Origin: a crenarchaeote SCGC AAA261-N23
Lineage (GTDB): Archaea; Thermoproteota; Thermoprotei; Gearchaeales; Gearchaeaceae
DNA: 38,486 bases
NCBI GenBank assembly: GCA_000375685.1
Contig: AQVQ01000003.1
Coordinates: forward strand, 1 to 38,486
Direction of reading: 5' to 3'
The translations under genes and the position numbers were made by a program. Below the pieces are notes generated by a model that worked only from the letters and a program-made list of their open reading frames with translations, did not search any database and was not told the origin of the DNA. Each line of letters starts with the position of its first letter. The first letter of the stretch is position 1. Shown in pieces: positions 11,844-21,914 of this stretch.

Positions 11844-14336
11844 ATGAGGAAGATTAATAAAGCCTCACCTAAGCTATTTAGCGATATACAAGTAAATTTT
11901 AAATGTTTATCAGTTAATGAAACCAACTTAGATATAATAGAGAACTATAAAATAGGATTATCTTACGTAATTATTACATCAGATGGAAGATACCTTATAA
12001 AAGACCCAACAATAGCTCAAAACGAAATTGAAACTTTAAACAACATAATAAACGATCTTGTATACAAACTCCCAAGTATTCAAGTAGATGACAGAAACAA
12101 ATTTAGAGAAGTATTAGAGAAGTTTGGAATATACGAAAATAAACTCATTTATTATTTAGAAAGAGAACTTTTTGGATACGGTGTTTTAGAGCCTTTAATG
12201 AAAGACCAAAAAATTGAGGATATTCAAATTCCTTCACCGAATGTTCCTGCAAGAGTTGTGCACTCTGATTATGGTAAAATGGTAACAAATGTAATTCTAG
12301 ATGAGAATGAGCTGGACCTCTACATAGAGAAACTTGTTTATAAAAGTGGGAAAAGCGTGAGCATGTTTAAACCAATGCTTTCAATTAAATCTTCTGATAC
12401 AGCAAGAATAACTGTAACTTATAAAAAAGAAGTAGGTTATAAAGGAAGTAGCGTAACTATAAGAAAATTTCCTGAAAATCCTTGGAGTATAACACGCATA
12501 TTATGCAAGAATACGATAGATGTGGTAAGTGCCGCATACCTAATGAAATTGATAGAGAATAAAAAAGCAGTTTTAGTAATCGGTGGAATGGGTGATGGTA
12601 AAACGAGCCTAATAAACTCCCTGACAAACTTCATACCGCATAATTCTACTGTCATAACAGTTGAAGACTCAGTTTGCGGAGATGCATACATTTTATGTAT
12701 ATTAGAAAATGAATTAAAATTTATAAAAATTGGCGAGTTGATTGAAAGTTTATTCTTAATGAATAATAAAGAAAAAGAAGGATTCTTAAAAGTTGATAAT
12801 CTATATGTCTTAACAATTGATGAAAATAATAATATAAATTGGAAAAAATGTGATTATGTTTATAAACATACTGTTTTTAAAGAATTCGTCAAAATTATTA
12901 CAGAATCAGGAAAAGAGATAGAAGTAACAGCTGATCATTCACTATTTAAATTCGATGAAAACAGTAAAACTCTGATACCTGTTAAATGTTCTCTATTAGA
13001 AGTAGGTGATACGATTGCCGTATTGGCTAATTTAAATTTAGAAGATTTAATCCTTAATTCTAATTCACTAGCGATTCGGTGTCAAGATCCAAACATTATA
13101 TCAAGTTTTAAATCATCAAGCTACTCAGGTTCTGTAAACACTGAATTCAATAGCGCATATGAAATCTTACAAACGAATATAAACGAGGCAAAAGCAACAA
13201 GACTTTTTGAAAAGCTGATTTATAGCGGAAAGGAGGCAAGAGAAGAAATCCTAAACAATTTGGTGGAGGAAAAAGCAGATAACAAATACAAATTTATCAG
13301 AGTGAAAAGCAGGGATGAAATGATAGCTATCCAGACTTTACTGCTTTTACTTGGAATAGAAAGCATTGCGATCAAGAAAAGTAAAGGGAATGACGAATAT
13401 TATGAAATTATAATTAATGACCATAGTTTAATAGATAAAATTGCATTTTATCATAATTACCATATAAATAAAAATATAAAACACAATTGTATAAAAAATG
13501 AAAAAATTATAAATGTTGAAAAATCATTTAAAAGAGAAACAGTATATGATTTAACAGTATTAGATACAGGAAAATTTATTGCCAACAACTTCATTTGTCA
13601 CAACACACCTGAGCTAAGATTAGCGCATCAATATTGGATACCATTGGTAACGAGGGAAAGCATAACCTTAGATGAAAAAGGGAACATAGATATGTTCTCT
13701 TTAGTCAAGCACGCATTAAGAATGAGTGGAGATTACTTGATCGTAGGTGAAGTTAGAGGAGAAGAAGGCAGAGTATGGGCGCAAGCGATAATGACAGGCC
13801 ATGGAGGTATTACTAGTCTTCATGCTGAATCACCAAGCTCTGCAATTGAAAGATTATTAAGCGATCCAATAAAGGTTGAAGCTGGAAGTTTAAGTTCATT
13901 ACATTCAATAGTTGATATACGTAAAGTATCGCAATACAAGGAAAATAGTAAAGGCAAAAAAATTGTCACATATCATAGAAGAGTGACAGGCTTATACGAT
14001 TTAAATTTTTCCACATCCACTAAAGAAGCAAAATTCTATAAAGTAACTTCTTACGATGGTGAAAATGATACATTTAAGACTATTTCTCTAGAAGAAATCA
14101 TCAAACTTCCTACAATGATCCAAATTATGGAAGAAAAAGGTATCGATGAGAAGAAATTACTGAAAGACCTTGAAACTAAAGTAAAATTCCTCAACAAAGT
14201 TAAAGAAATAGCTTTAAGCAATAATGAATACTTAGATTACAGCAATATTTGTAGAGTTATTTGGGAGTTTTACAAAGATCCTGATACTTTCAAGTTTGAT
14301 GAAATTCCCAAGAGAACCGAGATAGTTCTCGAATAA
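11844..14336 (+). CDS. Type II/IV secretion (archaeal pilus assembly) ATPase precursor containing an in-frame intein
   Basis: Walker A 'IGGMGDGKTSL'; host sequence 'TVED' joins 'TPELRLAHQYWIPLVTRES' once the intein is removed; 'DYLIVGEVRGEEGRVWAQAIMTGHGGITSLHAESP' Walker B/His box. Confidence 0.93.
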   Translation: MRKINKASPKLFSDIQVNFKCLSVNETNLDIIENYKIGLSYVIITSDGRYLIKDPTIAQNEIETLNNIINDLVYKLPSIQVDDRNKFREVLEKFGIYENKLIYYLERELFGYGVLEPLMKDQKIEDIQIPSPNVPARVVHSDYGKMVTNVILDENELDLYIEKLVYKSGKSVSMFKPMLSIKSSDTARITVTYKKEVGYKGSSVTIRKFPENPWSITRILCKNTIDVVSAAYLMKLIENKKAVLVIGGMGDGKTSLINSLTNFIPHNSTVITVEDSVCGDAYILCILENELKFIKIGELIESLFLMNNKEKEGFLKVDNLYVLTIDENNNINWKKCDYVYKHTVFKEFVKIITESGKEIEVTADHSLFKFDENSKTLIPVKCSLLEVGDTIAVLANLNLEDLILNSNSLAIRCQDPNIISSFKSSSYSGSVNTEFNSAYEILQTNINEAKATRLFEKLIYSGKEAREEILNNLVEEKADNKYKFIRVKSRDEMIAIQTLLLLLGIESIAIKKSKGNDEYYEIIINDHSLIDKIAFYHNYHINKNIKHNCIKNEKIINVEKSFKRETVYDLTVLDTGKFIANNFICHNTPELRLAHQYWIPLVTRESITLDEKGNIDMFSLVKHALRMSGDYLIVGEVRGEEGRVWAQAIMTGHGGITSLHAESPSSAIERLLSDPIKVEAGSLSSLHSIVDIRKVSQYKENSKGKKIVTYHRRVTGLYDLNFSTSTKEAKFYKVTSYDGENDTFKTISLEEIIKLPTMIQIMEEKGIDEKKLLKDLETKVKFLNKVKEIALSNNEYLDYSNICRVIWEFYKDPDTFKFDEIPKRTEIVLE
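12669..13604 (+). mobile_element. Intein (312 aa, Ser1, +1 Thr) inside the secretion ATPase, with degenerate LAGLIDADG endonuclease remnant
   Basis: Block A 'SVCGDAYIL', block B 'GKEIEVTADHSLFKF', block F/G 'ETVYDLTVLDTGKFIANNFICHN' followed by Thr; excision restores the contiguous motif VITVED|TPELRLAH. Confidence 0.93.
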
Positions 14337-16171
14337 TGCTTACAAAGAGAAAATACGAGTTCTTAAGCACTAAAATATTTTCAAATATTCCATTTTTGAA
14401 TATATGTGTTCCACTAATTATTTTAGTATCAGTGATAACTGTTAGCTTTCTTAACGGTATAACATTAATGCATATTATACTTTTAATCGTTTTCTTATTT
14501 TCCATAATTCTAGTAAATAAAAGAATAGAAACAATATTCAATTTTTTTAATAAGAAATTTAACTTAATAGAAAATTACAAAACAAAGTTATTTTATTCTG
14601 AGATAAATGAGAATCCGTTTGAATATAGCAAAAAGATGGTATTATATTTACTATTATATACTATATCTTCAATTCTTTCTTTATTCATGATTCTTTATTT
14701 TAAGTTAAGTTTTTGGTTCGTAATAATCGTTATTTTAGGCAACGCTTATTTAGTGTTCATATTATTTTATCCTTCGATAAAAACTAACCAAATTAGTAGT
14801 GGAGTTGAAAAAGAAATCCAAATGCTTTATGCACTGCTATCATCATTTCTAACAGTAGGTATCAACCCTTACCTTACTTTATCAGTGATTAATGAAAATC
14901 CATTCTTTAGCTTTTTTAAAAAAGTCTTCAATCAGATTGAAAAAATAAAGATTCTTTACATTCTTAATCCGATGGATGCAATTGCAAAGTATTCTAGAAT
15001 CGCTCAAAGTGATCAATTGCGAGACTTATTACAAACAATTTCTGCGAGCGAGACTATAGAATTGCATAAATTAATCAAGAATAAAATGATAGATAGCTTT
15101 AAACTTCTAGAAAAGAGAATTGAGAACTTACTTGAGAAGTTTAATATTCTACTAGCTTCCCAACTTTTGGTGTTTATATTGGTTCCAATTACAATGATCG
15201 TCACAGCTATTTTTACTGGATTAGATTTGGGTTTAGCTTTGGTCATTTTCATTTTGGTTCCTATCTTATTTTTTGTAGCATTCTTCTTTATGCTTAGAAC
15301 AAGCATACCTTCACATTTAAGTCTTCAAATAAGCCTTGATTATAAGTATGGGGGGATTTTGCTTATAGCTATTACACCCTTACTTGGAATTTTTTATCTA
15401 AAAGGAATTATAGGATTGGATAATCTAGTGTTTATAGCTTTAATGTCCTTCCTACTTTGCATGTTTTATTTTAATTATAAAAAACAGAGTATATACGAGA
15501 TTCTAATCAGTTCAATACCTAAAGTATTTCGAGAAATTGCTGAGGAAACAAAAAAAGGTATAAGTCCTTCGCAAGCATTGGAAAAAGTAATAGAAAGAGT
15601 TGAAGAAATCGTCAAGTTATTCATAAAAAAGCTGCTATTCTCTAAAAGATTGGGTTTAAGCATTACTTCAATTTTGACAAAGGAAAATCTTCCATTACTG
15701 TTTAAGCAATTATTCAGCATACTTGAATACACAGATCAGGTAGGTGCTGATCCATCTATTTATAATGATTTGGCAGATTTTGTTGAAAGATTAGATAATA
15801 GTAGAAGAGTCTATAAAATTAGAACCAGATTTTTCAAATATTCTAGCTACTTTGTTACAGCATTATTAGGAGTTTCAATTTCGATATCAATATCAGTCTT
15901 AGGAAGTTTAATTAATGCATTCGGTTCTATTGTCACAATATACACAATTTCCTCTTTTTTGTCCTTCAACACTGCTCCTTATTGGATTTACTTAATAGCA
16001 AACATATCAGCTTATATCAACTCTGCAATGTTAGGCTATTTAGGTGGATCATTAGGATATGACCATGTAGAAGGATTTAAGAATGCGATGATATGCATGT
16101 TAATTGCCTTTTTTGTTTTACAAACTTTCAATCTGATTGGTATCTGGGGAAGTAATGGAAAGTTCTATTGA
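14336..16171 (+). CDS. Pilus assembly platform membrane protein (TadC/ArlJ/GspF-like, probable two T2SSF units)
   Basis: Polytopic; overlaps the ATPase stop; 'KVFREIAEETKKGISPSQALEKVIERV' and 'YKIRTRFFKYSSYFVTALLGVSISISI' resemble archaeal pilus platform proteins. Confidence 0.8.
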   Translation: MLTKRKYEFLSTKIFSNIPFLNICVPLIILVSVITVSFLNGITLMHIILLIVFLFSIILVNKRIETIFNFFNKKFNLIENYKTKLFYSEINENPFEYSKKMVLYLLLYTISSILSLFMILYFKLSFWFVIIVILGNAYLVFILFYPSIKTNQISSGVEKEIQMLYALLSSFLTVGINPYLTLSVINENPFFSFFKKVFNQIEKIKILYILNPMDAIAKYSRIAQSDQLRDLLQTISASETIELHKLIKNKMIDSFKLLEKRIENLLEKFNILLASQLLVFILVPITMIVTAIFTGLDLGLALVIFILVPILFFVAFFFMLRTSIPSHLSLQISLDYKYGGILLIAITPLLGIFYLKGIIGLDNLVFIALMSFLLCMFYFNYKKQSIYEILISSIPKVFREIAEETKKGISPSQALEKVIERVEEIVKLFIKKLLFSKRLGLSITSILTKENLPLLFKQLFSILEYTDQVGADPSIYNDLADFVERLDNSRRVYKIRTRFFKYSSYFVTALLGVSISISISVLGSLINAFGSIVTIYTISSFLSFNTAPYWIYLIANISAYINSAMLGYLGGSLGYDHVEGFKNAMICMLIAFFVLQTFNLIGIWGSNGKFY

Positions 16172-16553
16172 GACCGTTGTAAGTGCTTTCATAATAATAG
16201 TGATCATAACATGGTCTTTAAGCAGCGTAACATATTTATTACATATCTACCAACAGCAAGAAATTACATTATTCTTGAATAGTTGTGCAAAGAATATTGC
16301 TTTAGCCTATTTAAACACAAAACCATACAATAATGTAAATCTTACGGGTTTCTGCGAAGGAAAAATAGGTAAAGGACTAATGTACTTTATTAAAATTAGT
16401 TTGTTCTATATAGTTAACGGTGACGTAAATGTCAAGGTTATATATCAAAATGGAAGTGAACCCAGCAACTTTGTAAACAAGGCGGTTTATTATGCATGCT
16501 TGTTGAAAGGTAATTTAACCTGCGTTGAAGTTTACGTATATGGCGAAACTTAG
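16155..16553 (+). CDS. Small pilin-like/pilus accessory membrane protein (ATG at 16155; ORF track starts at TTG 16137)
   Basis: Single N-terminal hydrophobic helix 'VVSAFIIIVIITWSL', overlaps the preceding gene in the operon. Confidence 0.6.
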   Translation: MESSIETVVSAFIIIVIITWSLSSVTYLLHIYQQQEITLFLNSCAKNIALAYLNTKPYNNVNLTGFCEGKIGKGLMYFIKISLFYIVNGDVNVKVIYQNGSEPSNFVNKAVYYACLLKGNLTCVEVYVYGET

Positions 16554-16950
16554 ATCACAAGCAAGAATAATAGAAGCACTCCTTTCTTCTCTCATCATAA
16601 TTGGAGCTGTAACGATTTCTTATACGTTCTACACGCCTTTTTCCAGTTACAGCATAAGTACCGAATATGGAATACCTAGTAATGTAATAGGATTCATAGT
16701 AGAGAATGGTTACCTTAAATATGTGTTTGAAAATCCAAGTGTGTTGATAAGCGTTTGTAATGAAATAATACCCCAAGATTTCGGTTTCAAGATTACCTTA
16801 TATGATGAAAACTGGAATATTATATGGTCATATCAAACTGCTGATTTTACTTCACAAAATGAAATATCCGCTTATCTTATAATTAATGGTTTTTATGAAG
16901 AAAATTCAACTGGTTTCTTTATTTTTGTTGTTTCCATAAGTAAGGCATGA
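16540..16950 (+). CDS. Minor pilin-like protein (ATG at 16540)
   Basis: 'MAKLRSQARIIEALLSSLIIIGAVTISY': basic residues then hydrophobic stretch, class III signal peptide-like; overlapping operon gene. Confidence 0.6.
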   Translation: MAKLRSQARIIEALLSSLIIIGAVTISYTFYTPFSSYSISTEYGIPSNVIGFIVENGYLKYVFENPSVLISVCNEIIPQDFGFKITLYDENWNIIWSYQTADFTSQNEISAYLIINGFYEENSTGFFIFVVSISKA

Positions 16951-17678
16951 GAAAAGCACAAGTATTGATTCCTATAGTTGCGATACTAGCTATAATGTTG
17001 ATATTATTCTCGTTATCTCTAAGGGAAATCGGTGTTGATTATATTATACAAGGTTCTGAACCAACTAGCAAATATATCCAACTTTTTTATTTCATTGAAG
17101 AATCTTTAGCTAATGGCACTCAAACAGGCTTCAAATACATCAATATGAATTACAATAAAAGCGATTTTAATCCTAAAACCAACATATTAGCGATTTATTT
17201 AACCAAAATTTTTGCACTGCATTACTACAACTACACCCTCAATAAGGCTTCTGCAATAATAGGCCAAACTGATATGAAATTTTACATCAATTCTACAAGT
17301 AATCCATATTTGCTTTACTTGAATGGAAGTTTAAATAAAGGCAAAGGTTCGTATTTCAATCTGACATTTTTCAAGAATGGTATATTTAGACTTAATTTTT
17401 ACATGATAGTTAGCGAAGCAAAAATTGTGATCTCCAATTCTAGCATATATAATTATTATTTAGTTATCTTGAACTATAAATATGAAGTTTATTTTGGAAA
17501 CGAAAGAATTAACATTACAAATCAATTTGAGACTTTAGTTAACGGAAGTGAAAATGGCAATTTTGCTTATCTAAGAGGCCAAACATATTTAGAATTTATA
17601 CTACCTGCAAACTGCATAGGAAAAACGATCATAGGCTTAAAGGATTCCTATGGAATTATTGGCTGGGTGCTAGTGTAA
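16947..17678 (+). CDS. Minor pilin-like secreted protein
   Basis: 'MRKAQVLIPIVAILAIMLILFSL' class III signal peptide-like N-terminus; many potential N-glycosylation sequons; ATGA-type overlap. Confidence 0.6.
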   Translation: MRKAQVLIPIVAILAIMLILFSLSLREIGVDYIIQGSEPTSKYIQLFYFIEESLANGTQTGFKYINMNYNKSDFNPKTNILAIYLTKIFALHYYNYTLNKASAIIGQTDMKFYINSTSNPYLLYLNGSLNKGKGSYFNLTFFKNGIFRLNFYMIVSEAKIVISNSSIYNYYLVILNYKYEVYFGNERINITNQFETLVNGSENGNFAYLRGQTYLEFILPANCIGKTIIGLKDSYGIIGWVLV

Positions 17679-18127
17679 TGCCATCAATTATATTATCAAA
17701 CATAGTGGTAACGGTAAGTTTGATCATTTTAATATCAATATCTTTCTCTCTTAGTTACGCTGAATTGCTTAACTATTACAGTTATTTGGATCAAGATGTT
17801 TTAATTAAAGATTTAGTCAAAATTAATAATGCAATAAATTATATATACGGAAAAATTCAAACATCCATAAACATCGAGTTAATACTAACGCCCGGAAGCA
17901 GAATAGACTTCTATCTAAACGGAACAATTATGTTTTACCCTTCAGTAGATAGCAGAACTTTGAAGTCTTTTATTCTTGATCCTAACAATCTAATTGTCAA
18001 TATCGGTTCAAATTTTATATATTATAAAGTAACCTTCTCTGGAGAGAGAGTTGTAGCAACACAAATGAGCCATATAAGTTTACTTTATAGTAAGCCAAAC
18101 GAGATTGAAGTTTTCTTATCTAATTAG
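17678..18127 (+). CDS. Small membrane-anchored pilus-locus protein
   Basis: N-terminal hydrophobic helix, short extracytoplasmic domain, overlaps preceding stop. Confidence 0.55.
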   Translation: MPSIILSNIVVTVSLIILISISFSLSYAELLNYYSYLDQDVLIKDLVKINNAINYIYGKIQTSINIELILTPGSRIDFYLNGTIMFYPSVDSRTLKSFILDPNNLIVNIGSNFIYYKVTFSGERVVATQMSHISLLYSKPNEIEVFLSN

Positions 18128-18338
18128 AAATACAGTTTAATTGGTGAAATGAGAAAGTTAAGTATTGTTAATAGCTAATATCCTTTATTCAATTGATTCA
18201 ATGAGTCGTTGAAAGGAAGATTAACGGCTTAATATTTCCATCTAATATGCTTTGATTTGATCAATTAAATCTTTTTAATTCGCAAAAAAGAGAATCAAAA
18301 GACTAGTCGTTTTTATAAAAACTTTTAAAAAAATTTTG

Positions 18339-20333
18339 ATGAACTTAAGCAACTTCAGGACAAAGTTATTGATATTACTAACATTATCCTTGCTTATAGC
18401 AGCTACGATAAACATCCCAACCGTTTTTTCAAACCTAAATGGTCCTTTACTATGTTTTAGAGGATATCTCATAACGCCTATAGGTACGGAGCAATCTTAT
18501 GGCCAAGGGGCAATTATTAACTTCGATGGTAGCACTTATGTTTTAAACTCATGTACAGATTACAAAGTTGGGATTTTCAATCTGATTGCATACGTTGATT
18601 TGGATTACATATTTGTTAAATGGAGTTCAAGCTCAAATATAGTAATAAAAAATCCGTATAATTCTTCTACTTCAGTTCAGCTTTTATCACAAACTTCTGA
18701 TAGATCATACATAAATTTATATATTAGGAAACCTTGGCTGTATTTTCATACATATCTCATTACATCAGTAGGATATGAAGTAGCAAAAGATGCTCAAATA
18801 ATTTTCAATGGGGGTATTTACAATGACAACGGAGTAACTGCTTACGTTCCTGGAACATATACCATAAAAGCTAATTATCCAAGTAATTATAAGTTTGACC
18901 ACTGGGCAAGTTCAAGCACAATCTTAATAAATGACGTTCTAAGTCCTTCAACAACTGCAACACTAAGAATACAGAGTTTAGCAAAAGATCAGCAAATCTC
19001 GCTATATATTAAAGGTAGACTTTTTAATGTGACTTTCTTTCAAAAAGGAGTCCCAAGCAATCTAATATGGAAAGTATCAATAGGAAATATAACAAAGTCT
19101 GCGCTAGGTAGCAACGGTATAAGCTTTAATCTACTTGAAGGAGATTATCAGTTTAAAGTAACACCAATTGCTTTTGATAACAATTTATATTATCCTAACC
19201 CTGATAGTGGAGTTATATATGTTAGAGATAACATGGTTGTAAATATAACATTCTACATGATACCTGAAAATAATGGTAATCCTTCTCAAATTAGCAATTT
19301 AAACAAAGTTCAAGCTAAGTTATTTATTATAGACCCTAATCGAAATAGTTCAAATCTAACTAAAAATGATTACTTTATTGGCATAGTTGGAGAGAAAATT
19401 AAATTTGTACTTTATTTGAATATTCAAGGAATAACTTTATCTCTTTTATCTCCAATAAAGATTCTAATTGAAAATATAATTATTAAAGCAACTCCAAGCA
19501 ATGCTTTTTTAGTTAACAACTATAATTCAACTGAAATACAAACTATAATAAAAATACCAAACATAACTTTAAATAATACGTTAAGCGGTTCTACATCTTT
19601 ATACATAATTCTTAATAACCAAAATAATATTGCGCTAAGCTTTAACAAAGGAAATTACACTGTGGACCTTACTGCGAATCTTGCTATTTATTACAATAAA
19701 ATCTCATCTATAATTCTACCAATTCAAGCATCTACAAACTTAATAATCGATGAAGCAAAAATAGCATTAAATGATTCACTATATTTCAACGATCAATTAA
19801 TTTTGATATTTAGATATTATTGGAAAACACTGAATTATCCTATTTACAATAAAAGTGGATTACTAAGCGTTATTATACTACCTTTTGGCGTAGAAGGAAA
19901 TTTCATAGATAACCGTGGTTATCTTAAGGTAACAATTAATGAAAACGTTGTGAAAAACTTGGTTAACGAAATCACTGGTCAAATCGAAATTGTAGGCATA
20001 TTTTTCGATGGAGCAAATGTTTATAACAGTATTAGCTACATCAATTACTCCACCGTCGCAATTAGCATGATAAATTCAGATAAAAGCTACGGTGTAAAAA
20101 TTAAGGTTGTTAATTTTGCTAATTTAAGGCCTATAAGTGATGCGGAAGTAATGGTAGTTATTAATGACATAATTTTTGGAATTTACAAAACAGATATGAA
20201 CGGGGAGATAAATATTATTTACGGTGGTTCAATTTATTCCCTACGTGTAGCAATATATTATTTACATTCCAATAACTTTATACTGCTACCCTCTAAGTAC
20301 TCTAACGTAACACTTTTGGTATCTGGTTTATAG
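18339..20333 (+). CDS. Large secreted/surface protein with repeated beta domains, candidate pilus-associated adhesin (ATG at 18339)
   Basis: N-terminal signal-like hydrophobic segment; two related units ending 'FVKWSSSSNIVIKNPYNSSTS' and 'FDHWASSSTILINDVLSPSTT'; then 'FNVTFFQKGVPSNLIWKVSIGN' domain common in archaeal surface proteins. Confidence 0.6.
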   Translation: MNLSNFRTKLLILLTLSLLIAATINIPTVFSNLNGPLLCFRGYLITPIGTEQSYGQGAIINFDGSTYVLNSCTDYKVGIFNLIAYVDLDYIFVKWSSSSNIVIKNPYNSSTSVQLLSQTSDRSYINLYIRKPWLYFHTYLITSVGYEVAKDAQIIFNGGIYNDNGVTAYVPGTYTIKANYPSNYKFDHWASSSTILINDVLSPSTTATLRIQSLAKDQQISLYIKGRLFNVTFFQKGVPSNLIWKVSIGNITKSALGSNGISFNLLEGDYQFKVTPIAFDNNLYYPNPDSGVIYVRDNMVVNITFYMIPENNGNPSQISNLNKVQAKLFIIDPNRNSSNLTKNDYFIGIVGEKIKFVLYLNIQGITLSLLSPIKILIENIIIKATPSNAFLVNNYNSTEIQTIIKIPNITLNNTLSGSTSLYIILNNQNNIALSFNKGNYTVDLTANLAIYYNKISSIILPIQASTNLIIDEAKIALNDSLYFNDQLILIFRYYWKTLNYPIYNKSGLLSVIILPFGVEGNFIDNRGYLKVTINENVVKNLVNEITGQIEIVGIFFDGANVYNSISYINYSTVAISMINSDKSYGVKIKVVNFANLRPISDAEVMVVINDIIFGIYKTDMNGEINIIYGGSIYSLRVAIYYLHSNNFILLPSKYSNVTLLVSGL

Positions 20334-21482: not shown

Positions 21483-21914
21483 ATGAGAAAAGTTATTAAG
21501 AAAAGACGAGGAGATATATCTGGTCCAATAGTTGCAGTATTATTAATAATCGCCTCTATTGCAATCGCAAGCGTAGTAATTACTTGGATGTATAGTTTAG
21601 GCACATCAGCTAGCAAACAAGGTGCGCTGCTTGTTGTTGGTACTCCTGTGATCGCAAAGAATGGAAATAATTATACATTATATATAACAGTTAAAAATTC
21701 TGGTAACGTTCCTGTAAACGTAACAGGAGTTATAGTCAATGGAGTACCTTGGACAATCATTTCTAATACACCAAATTTAGTAACTGTAGGGGTGGGCGCT
21801 GTGGTATCCTTTAGCGCTTCTTACAGCACTAGCATAACCTTAAATACCAATGTTAACGGGGTATTACAAACAACTGCAGGTACTATACCTTTTGTAGCAA
21901 TAGTACAAAGTTAA
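21483..21914 (+). CDS. Archaeal type IV pilin (class III signal peptide), probable major pilin
   Basis: 'MRKVIKKRRG|DISGPIVAVLLIIASIAIASVVITWMY' canonical charged n-region/cleavage/H-domain; C-terminal beta-rich Ser/Thr/Asn/Val domain. Confidence 0.85.
   Translation: MRKVIKKRRGDISGPIVAVLLIIASIAIASVVITWMYSLGTSASKQGALLVVGTPVIAKNGNNYTLYITVKNSGNVPVNVTGVIVNGVPWTIISNTPNLVTVGVGAVVSFSASYSTSITLNTNVNGVLQTTAGTIPFVAIVQS

Follow-up and report, generated by a model that had tools for sequence, protein, structure and literature searches.

The window, i.e., the entire stretch of 38,486 nucleotides analyzed here, very probably encodes, within the Asp box of an archaeal FlaI/GspE2-like type-4-filament ATPase, a class 1 intein whose homing-endonuclease domain has decayed and which would be removed by protein splicing. 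The open reading frame concerned (11844–14336, + strand, as all features given below) codes for 830 amino acids, and its translation contains a single uninterrupted in-frame segment of 312 amino acids at 12669–13604. The encoded precursor, an archaeal secretion (type 4 filament) ATPase with an intein, was matched by T2SSE (PF00437, E = 1e-20), by the FlaI model NF058587 (E = 2.6e-71) and by Intein_splicing (PF14890).

An Intein Between the Two Halves of the Asp Box

The N-extein (275 aa, 11844–12668), as delimited by alignment with an intein-free orthologue, comprises the N-terminal domain and the Walker A motif GGMGDGKTS (12582–12608, assigned from translation and motif spacing) and ends with ...ITVED. 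Its last three residues, VED (12660–12668), form the first half of the Asp box, the second half of which, TPE (13605–13613), opens the C-extein; both halves were assigned by alignment with "IEDTPE" of FlaI (4II7) and "CEDAAE" of CpaF (8RKD). The C-extein (243 aa, 13605–14336) starts at Thr+1 with TPELRLAH and continues with the Walker B region GEVRGEE and the His box TGHGGITSLHAE.

The intein itself (12669–13604), recognized by translation, profiles and empty site, starts with Ser1 (codon TCA, 12669–12671) and ends with His-Asn (Asn codon AAC, 13602–13604), followed by Thr+1 (ACA, 13605–13607). Block A (SVCGDAYIL, 12669–12695) forms the N-terminal splice junction with Ser1 as the nucleophile, and block B (TADHSLF, 12927–12947) contains Thr B:7 and His B:10 (residue roles from PMC4031507). 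A decayed homing-endonuclease remnant occupies intein residues about 126–273 (13044–13487), as indicated by a weak LAGLIDADG_3 match and by low interspecies identity. Blocks F and G (VYDLTVLDTGKFIANNFICHN, 13542–13604) include Asp F:4, the penultimate His and the terminal Asn, with a Gly in place of the usual F:13 His. Intein_splicing covers intein residues 11–312 with 63.8 bits (E = 2e-17, cut-off 35.8), and TIGR01445 (intein_Nterm) matches the N-terminal part with 42.7 bits (cut-off 24.5). The agreement with an in-frame intein at 12669–13604 is far beyond chance.

The Empty Site in Related Genomes

Crenarchaeota archaeon Centralia_MAG_457 (JAJPJK01, hereafter G002), which belongs to the same family, has an orthologue without intein that reads ITVEDTPEIRLAH. 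Its alignment with the window breaks exactly between Asp275 and Thr588, and the empty site is ITVED|TPEIRLAH. From Walker A to Walker B there are 380 residues in the window vs. 68 in G002, and the difference of 312 equals the length of the intein. Among the homologues examined, about 57 lack the insertion, and in these the Asp box always follows 19 residues after Walker A. In a congeneric species, Thermoprotei archaeon CPBay_Spr30G08_23 (JAFMCU01, hereafter G001), this site is occupied by the same intein, again with Ser1, HN and Thr+1. As G001 is an independent MAG, an assembly artefact is very unlikely.

Among the matches listed from a sweep of 398 Thermoproteota genomes, the Asp-box site was confined to this genus, with no such insertion outside it. 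When the intein served as query, only distant inteins were returned elsewhere. Viral contigs yielded no relatives of the precursor, and neither plasmids nor phages contained relatives of the intein.

An earlier note on this DNA had proposed a Ser1/+1Thr intein at 12669–13604. Its coordinates are correct to the base, every block that it quoted was found, and both intein profiles exceed their cut-offs. Motifs and alignments also agree with its placing of the intein between Walker A and Walker B, within the Asp box, of a pilus/archaellum-type secretion ATPase. The exact restoration that it expected upon removal is borne out, with ITVED|TPELRLAH corresponding to a contiguous sequence in the intein-free same-family orthologue. 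The search for intein-less alleles in related genomes that it had suggested found them in G002 and in the about 57 homologues. The condition under which it would have been refuted, a native domain shared by every orthologue, is thereby contradicted.

Intein Class and Splicing Residues

In both the window and G001, position 1 is a Ser, block B has the T..H pair of Thr B:7 and His B:10 (TADH in the window, TGDH in G001), and block F reads VYDLTV with Asp F:4. The window intein ends in a C-terminal His-Asn with Thr at +1 (ICHN|T). Together with the exact empty site in the intein-free alleles (G002 and the about 57 homologues), these are the features of a class 1 intein. The His at F:13 is absent from both species (DTGKF and NNGKF, with Gly at this position). 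This residue is common, less conserved and assisting (Asn cyclization), and it is neither obligatory nor class-defining (PMC4031507). Three cysteines of the intein, Cys 61, 107 and 310, are common to the window and G001, and C310 adjoins the penultimate His. Class 3 is ruled out by the presence of Ser1. KlbA inteins belong to class 2, with Ala1, Ser G:6 and Cys+1 (PMC4031507), a type that is excluded here by Ser1, His G:6 and Thr+1. This confirms the contrast with Ala-starting KlbA inteins that the earlier note had drawn.

A PDB search with the intein returned solved inteins as the sole credible relatives, the best being that of TFIIB (5O9I, profile E = 8e-16). Of the solved inteins, the TFIIB mini-inteins 5O9I and 5O9J come closest in the sequence of the N-splicing domain (E about 1e-12 to 1e-15), and by our reading of the alignment 5O9I apparently lacks the F:13 His as well, having a Glu there. 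In contrast to the window intein, their host is a transcription factor and they are devoid of an endonuclease remnant of comparable size. The KlbA intein of Methanocaldococcus jannaschii (MJ0781, PDB 2JMZ) likewise resides in the same ATPase superfamily and its Hint domain matches the window intein (E = 7.5e-4). However, KlbA inteins with Ala1, Ser G:6 and Cys+1 follow another splicing route, and the window host is not a KlbA protein, as it reached 21.4 bits against the KlbA ATPase model NF010335 (cut-off 340 bits). An AlphaFold model of the intein, based on a two-row alignment, was of low confidence (pLDDT 41) and carries no weight in the argument.

The Host ATPase and Its Gene Neighborhood

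Once the intein is removed, Walker A, Asp box, Walker B and His box follow each other in this order, as in FlaI/GspE2-like ATPases, and the intein-free G002 orthologue matched 2OAP (E = 4e-57) and FlaI 4II7 (E = 7e-48). Because this uninterrupted orthologue scored 247 bits against the archaellum FlaI equivalog NF058587 and missed the cut-off of 550 bits, the host is termed FlaI-like here and is probably of the pilus/Ups type.

The ATPase likely serves a pilus-like filament system, as suggested by the genes that neighbor it. Its stop codon is overlapped by the gene of a T2SSF/UpsF-like membrane platform protein (14336–16171), which NF046075 (UpsF) matched with E = 1.8e-25 but without reaching the curated threshold of the model. 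Four small, overlapping ORFs on the same strand (16137–18127) are, judging by position and hydrophobic N-termini, membrane-anchored and possible minor pilins; the three of them that were scanned gave no NCBIfam match. Further downstream, at 21483–21914, a pilin-like protein (MRKVIKKRRGDISGPIVAVLLIIAS...) with a class III signal peptide-like start was recognized by eye, and an ORF resembling it adjoins the ATPase of G002. A surface-type protein of 665 aa with weak InlB-repeat-like similarity, assigned to no family, lies in the middle of this pilus-like cluster (18336–20333).

The same genome, which is partial (67% complete), contains other intein-free ATPases of the superfamily, namely those of C7 and C12 plus the C25 gene resembling KlbA, which reached 593.6 bits against NF010335. 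The claim of the earlier note that splicing would be required for any pilus assembly was therefore overstated. Of its overall reading, the structure of the intein and the contrast with KlbA stand, and this generalization does not. The KlbA-like PIN/ATPase gene (G000:C25:12167–13699, L047) is apparently without intein, and a single TAA lies within the region matched by the profile. Directly upstream of a TnpB-like gene there is a truncated homologue of the secretion ATPase, with a 184-aa frame and an intact NEDTPEL Asp box (G000:C28:4600–5170, L044).

Predicted Consequences for the Active Site and Proposed Splicing Route

In CpaF, the Asp-box residue E312 contacts Mg2+ (PMC11300603). It aligns without gaps to the Glu of EDTPE, and by this alignment the intein is positioned three residues upstream of that Glu. 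Since the intein parts Walker A from the putatively Mg2+-contacting Glu, the precursor should be inactive before splicing. After translation, an ester would form between Ser1 and Asp275, and attack of Thr+1 on this ester would lead to a branched intermediate. Cyclization of the C-terminal Asn, assisted by the penultimate His, would then release the intein, and an O–N shift would join ...ITVED to TPELRLAH... to give an ATPase of 518 aa.

Further Inteins in Secretion ATPases and in the Same Genome

Among the matches listed, secretion ATPases of Thermoproteota carried inteins at three further catalytic-motif sites: the Walker A site GK^T (G005, G347, G052:C92), a pre-His-box site of the QAM^TGH type (G052, G193, G196, G347, and FlaI-like genes in G272, G383 and G106) and the His-box site GGL^TSFHA, with Cys1 (G059). 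At all these sites, the +1 residue is the catalytic-motif Thr of the host itself. The pre-His-box inteins share the host family, Ser1, Thr+1 and the location in a catalytic motif with the window intein, and that of G196 is among its nearest relatives by profile (E = 2.6e-14). Yet, they are inserted past Walker B and ahead of the His box instead of in the Asp box, and most are much longer, with large middle domains. Inteins are thus recurrent in this ATPase family, and within the sample the Asp-box site was the rarer one. In the open-access papers covered by literature searches, there was no report of an intein in a secretion/FlaI/GspE ATPase.

Several of these genes have features of their own. 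Those of G347:C65 (L087) and G052:C92 (L100) contain two inteins each, at GK^T in Walker A and at QAM^TGH ahead of the His box, and the frame of G347:C65 extends over 1470 aa. In G272, G383 and G106 (L111, L114, L115), FlaI-like motors of the archaellum type are interrupted at QAMQ^TGH ahead of the His box, and the Cys1 intein of G059:C190 (L040) sits inside the His box (GHGGL^TSFHA). In the genome of the window, an intein cut by the contig end was found in the replication factor C small subunit (G000:C57:1–543, L045/L006; LELNA^S...), and an intein in G003 (L099) appears to be its allele. A candidate relic of an intein C-terminus at G000:C47:914–1060 was discarded: it overlaps the beginning of an MFS transporter gene in another reading frame and probably matched by chance.

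Decay of the Endonuclease and Retention of the Intein

Between the window and G001, identity amounts to 71% for the exteins, 52% for the N-splicing part, 63% for the C-splicing part and 25%, with indels, for the middle. The corresponding dN values are 0.20, 0.39, 0.20 and 0.92, with dS near or beyond saturation, which makes estimates of selection rough. The LAGLIDADG_3 match (intein residues 207–254, E = 0.0086) is below the cut-off, partial and without the catalytic motif region. An active LAGLIDADG homing endonuclease, an optional feature of inteins, was accordingly not recognized in this poorly conserved middle. As the splicing halves are conserved while the LAGLIDADG remnant is not, the intein is regarded as fixed and probably non-homing, its endonuclease having decayed. 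The picture is one of a splicing function apparently still under selection beside a dead endonuclease. In the simplest account, a formerly mobile intein would have invaded a highly conserved stretch of target DNA. With its endonuclease lost, it would since have been inherited vertically, retained by the need to splice and by the rarity of precise deletion.

Retention could also mean that the intein serves as a post-translational switch, with slow or conditional splicing, responding to temperature, to redox via C61, C107 and C310 or to ATP/extein contacts, gating filament assembly. The insertion in the catalytic center, by which unspliced protein should be inactive, would fit such a role, as would the persistence of the intein beyond its endonuclease in two diverged species and the shared state of the three cysteines and of F:13 in both. 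However, an intein would also persist for long under neutrality, as nothing short of its precise deletion restores the gene, and insertion in conserved active-site regions is the general rule for inteins (PMC2814812; PMC5790916). Location in ATP-binding proteins is likewise the rule and not the exception (more than 70%; PMC5790916). Three common cysteines in two species of one genus are weak evidence, and the other intein-free superfamily ATPases of the host also argue against a gate. The cysteines and the missing F:13 His are leads on splicing rate and not evidence of regulation.

The one point that would speak for regulation, which the earlier note had put forward as a gate on surface structures, is the analogy with the RadA intein of P. 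horikoshii, for which conditional splicing under a vestigial endonuclease loop was shown experimentally (PMC5790916). Like that of the window, this intein is archaeal, lies in an ATP-binding core and has a vestigial endonuclease loop. However, it occupies the P-loop and not the Asp box, and conditional splicing of the window intein is hypothetical. On balance, we consider a retained switch unlikely. Its more specific form appears quite improbable; here the intein, domesticated, with a dead endonuclease and fixed in a single archaeal genus, would keep the Asp box of a surface-filament motor split until conditions permit splicing and would thereby gate filament assembly.

A dead or dying intein, with the gene being a pseudogene or yielding cleaved halves only, would be in line with the decayed middle, the missing F:13 His and the low G+C content of the intein (0.27 vs. 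0.33 for the extein). Yet, all core catalytic residues are in place and conserved, as are both exteins (dN 0.20 for the extein), which is unexpected for a pseudogene and renders this explanation very unlikely. The segment is in frame and shared by two species, as would also be the case for a native ATPase accessory domain that does not splice. This reading is extremely unlikely and was rejected as far as sequence can tell, since the segment is absent from orthologues (G002) and dozens of homologues with an exactly restored Asp box, is matched over its full length by intein profiles and would destroy the active site.

Significance

The splicing class 1 intein favored here is well-formed but conventional; its site is unusual. 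It adds an apparently rare insertion site to the inteins of secretion/pilus ATPases. Together with the loci at the three other sites, it suggests that archaeal type-4-filament ATPases are repeatedly targeted by inteins, at four catalytic motifs and outside replication and repair. If splicing were conditional, it would offer a post-translational route to control surface structures.
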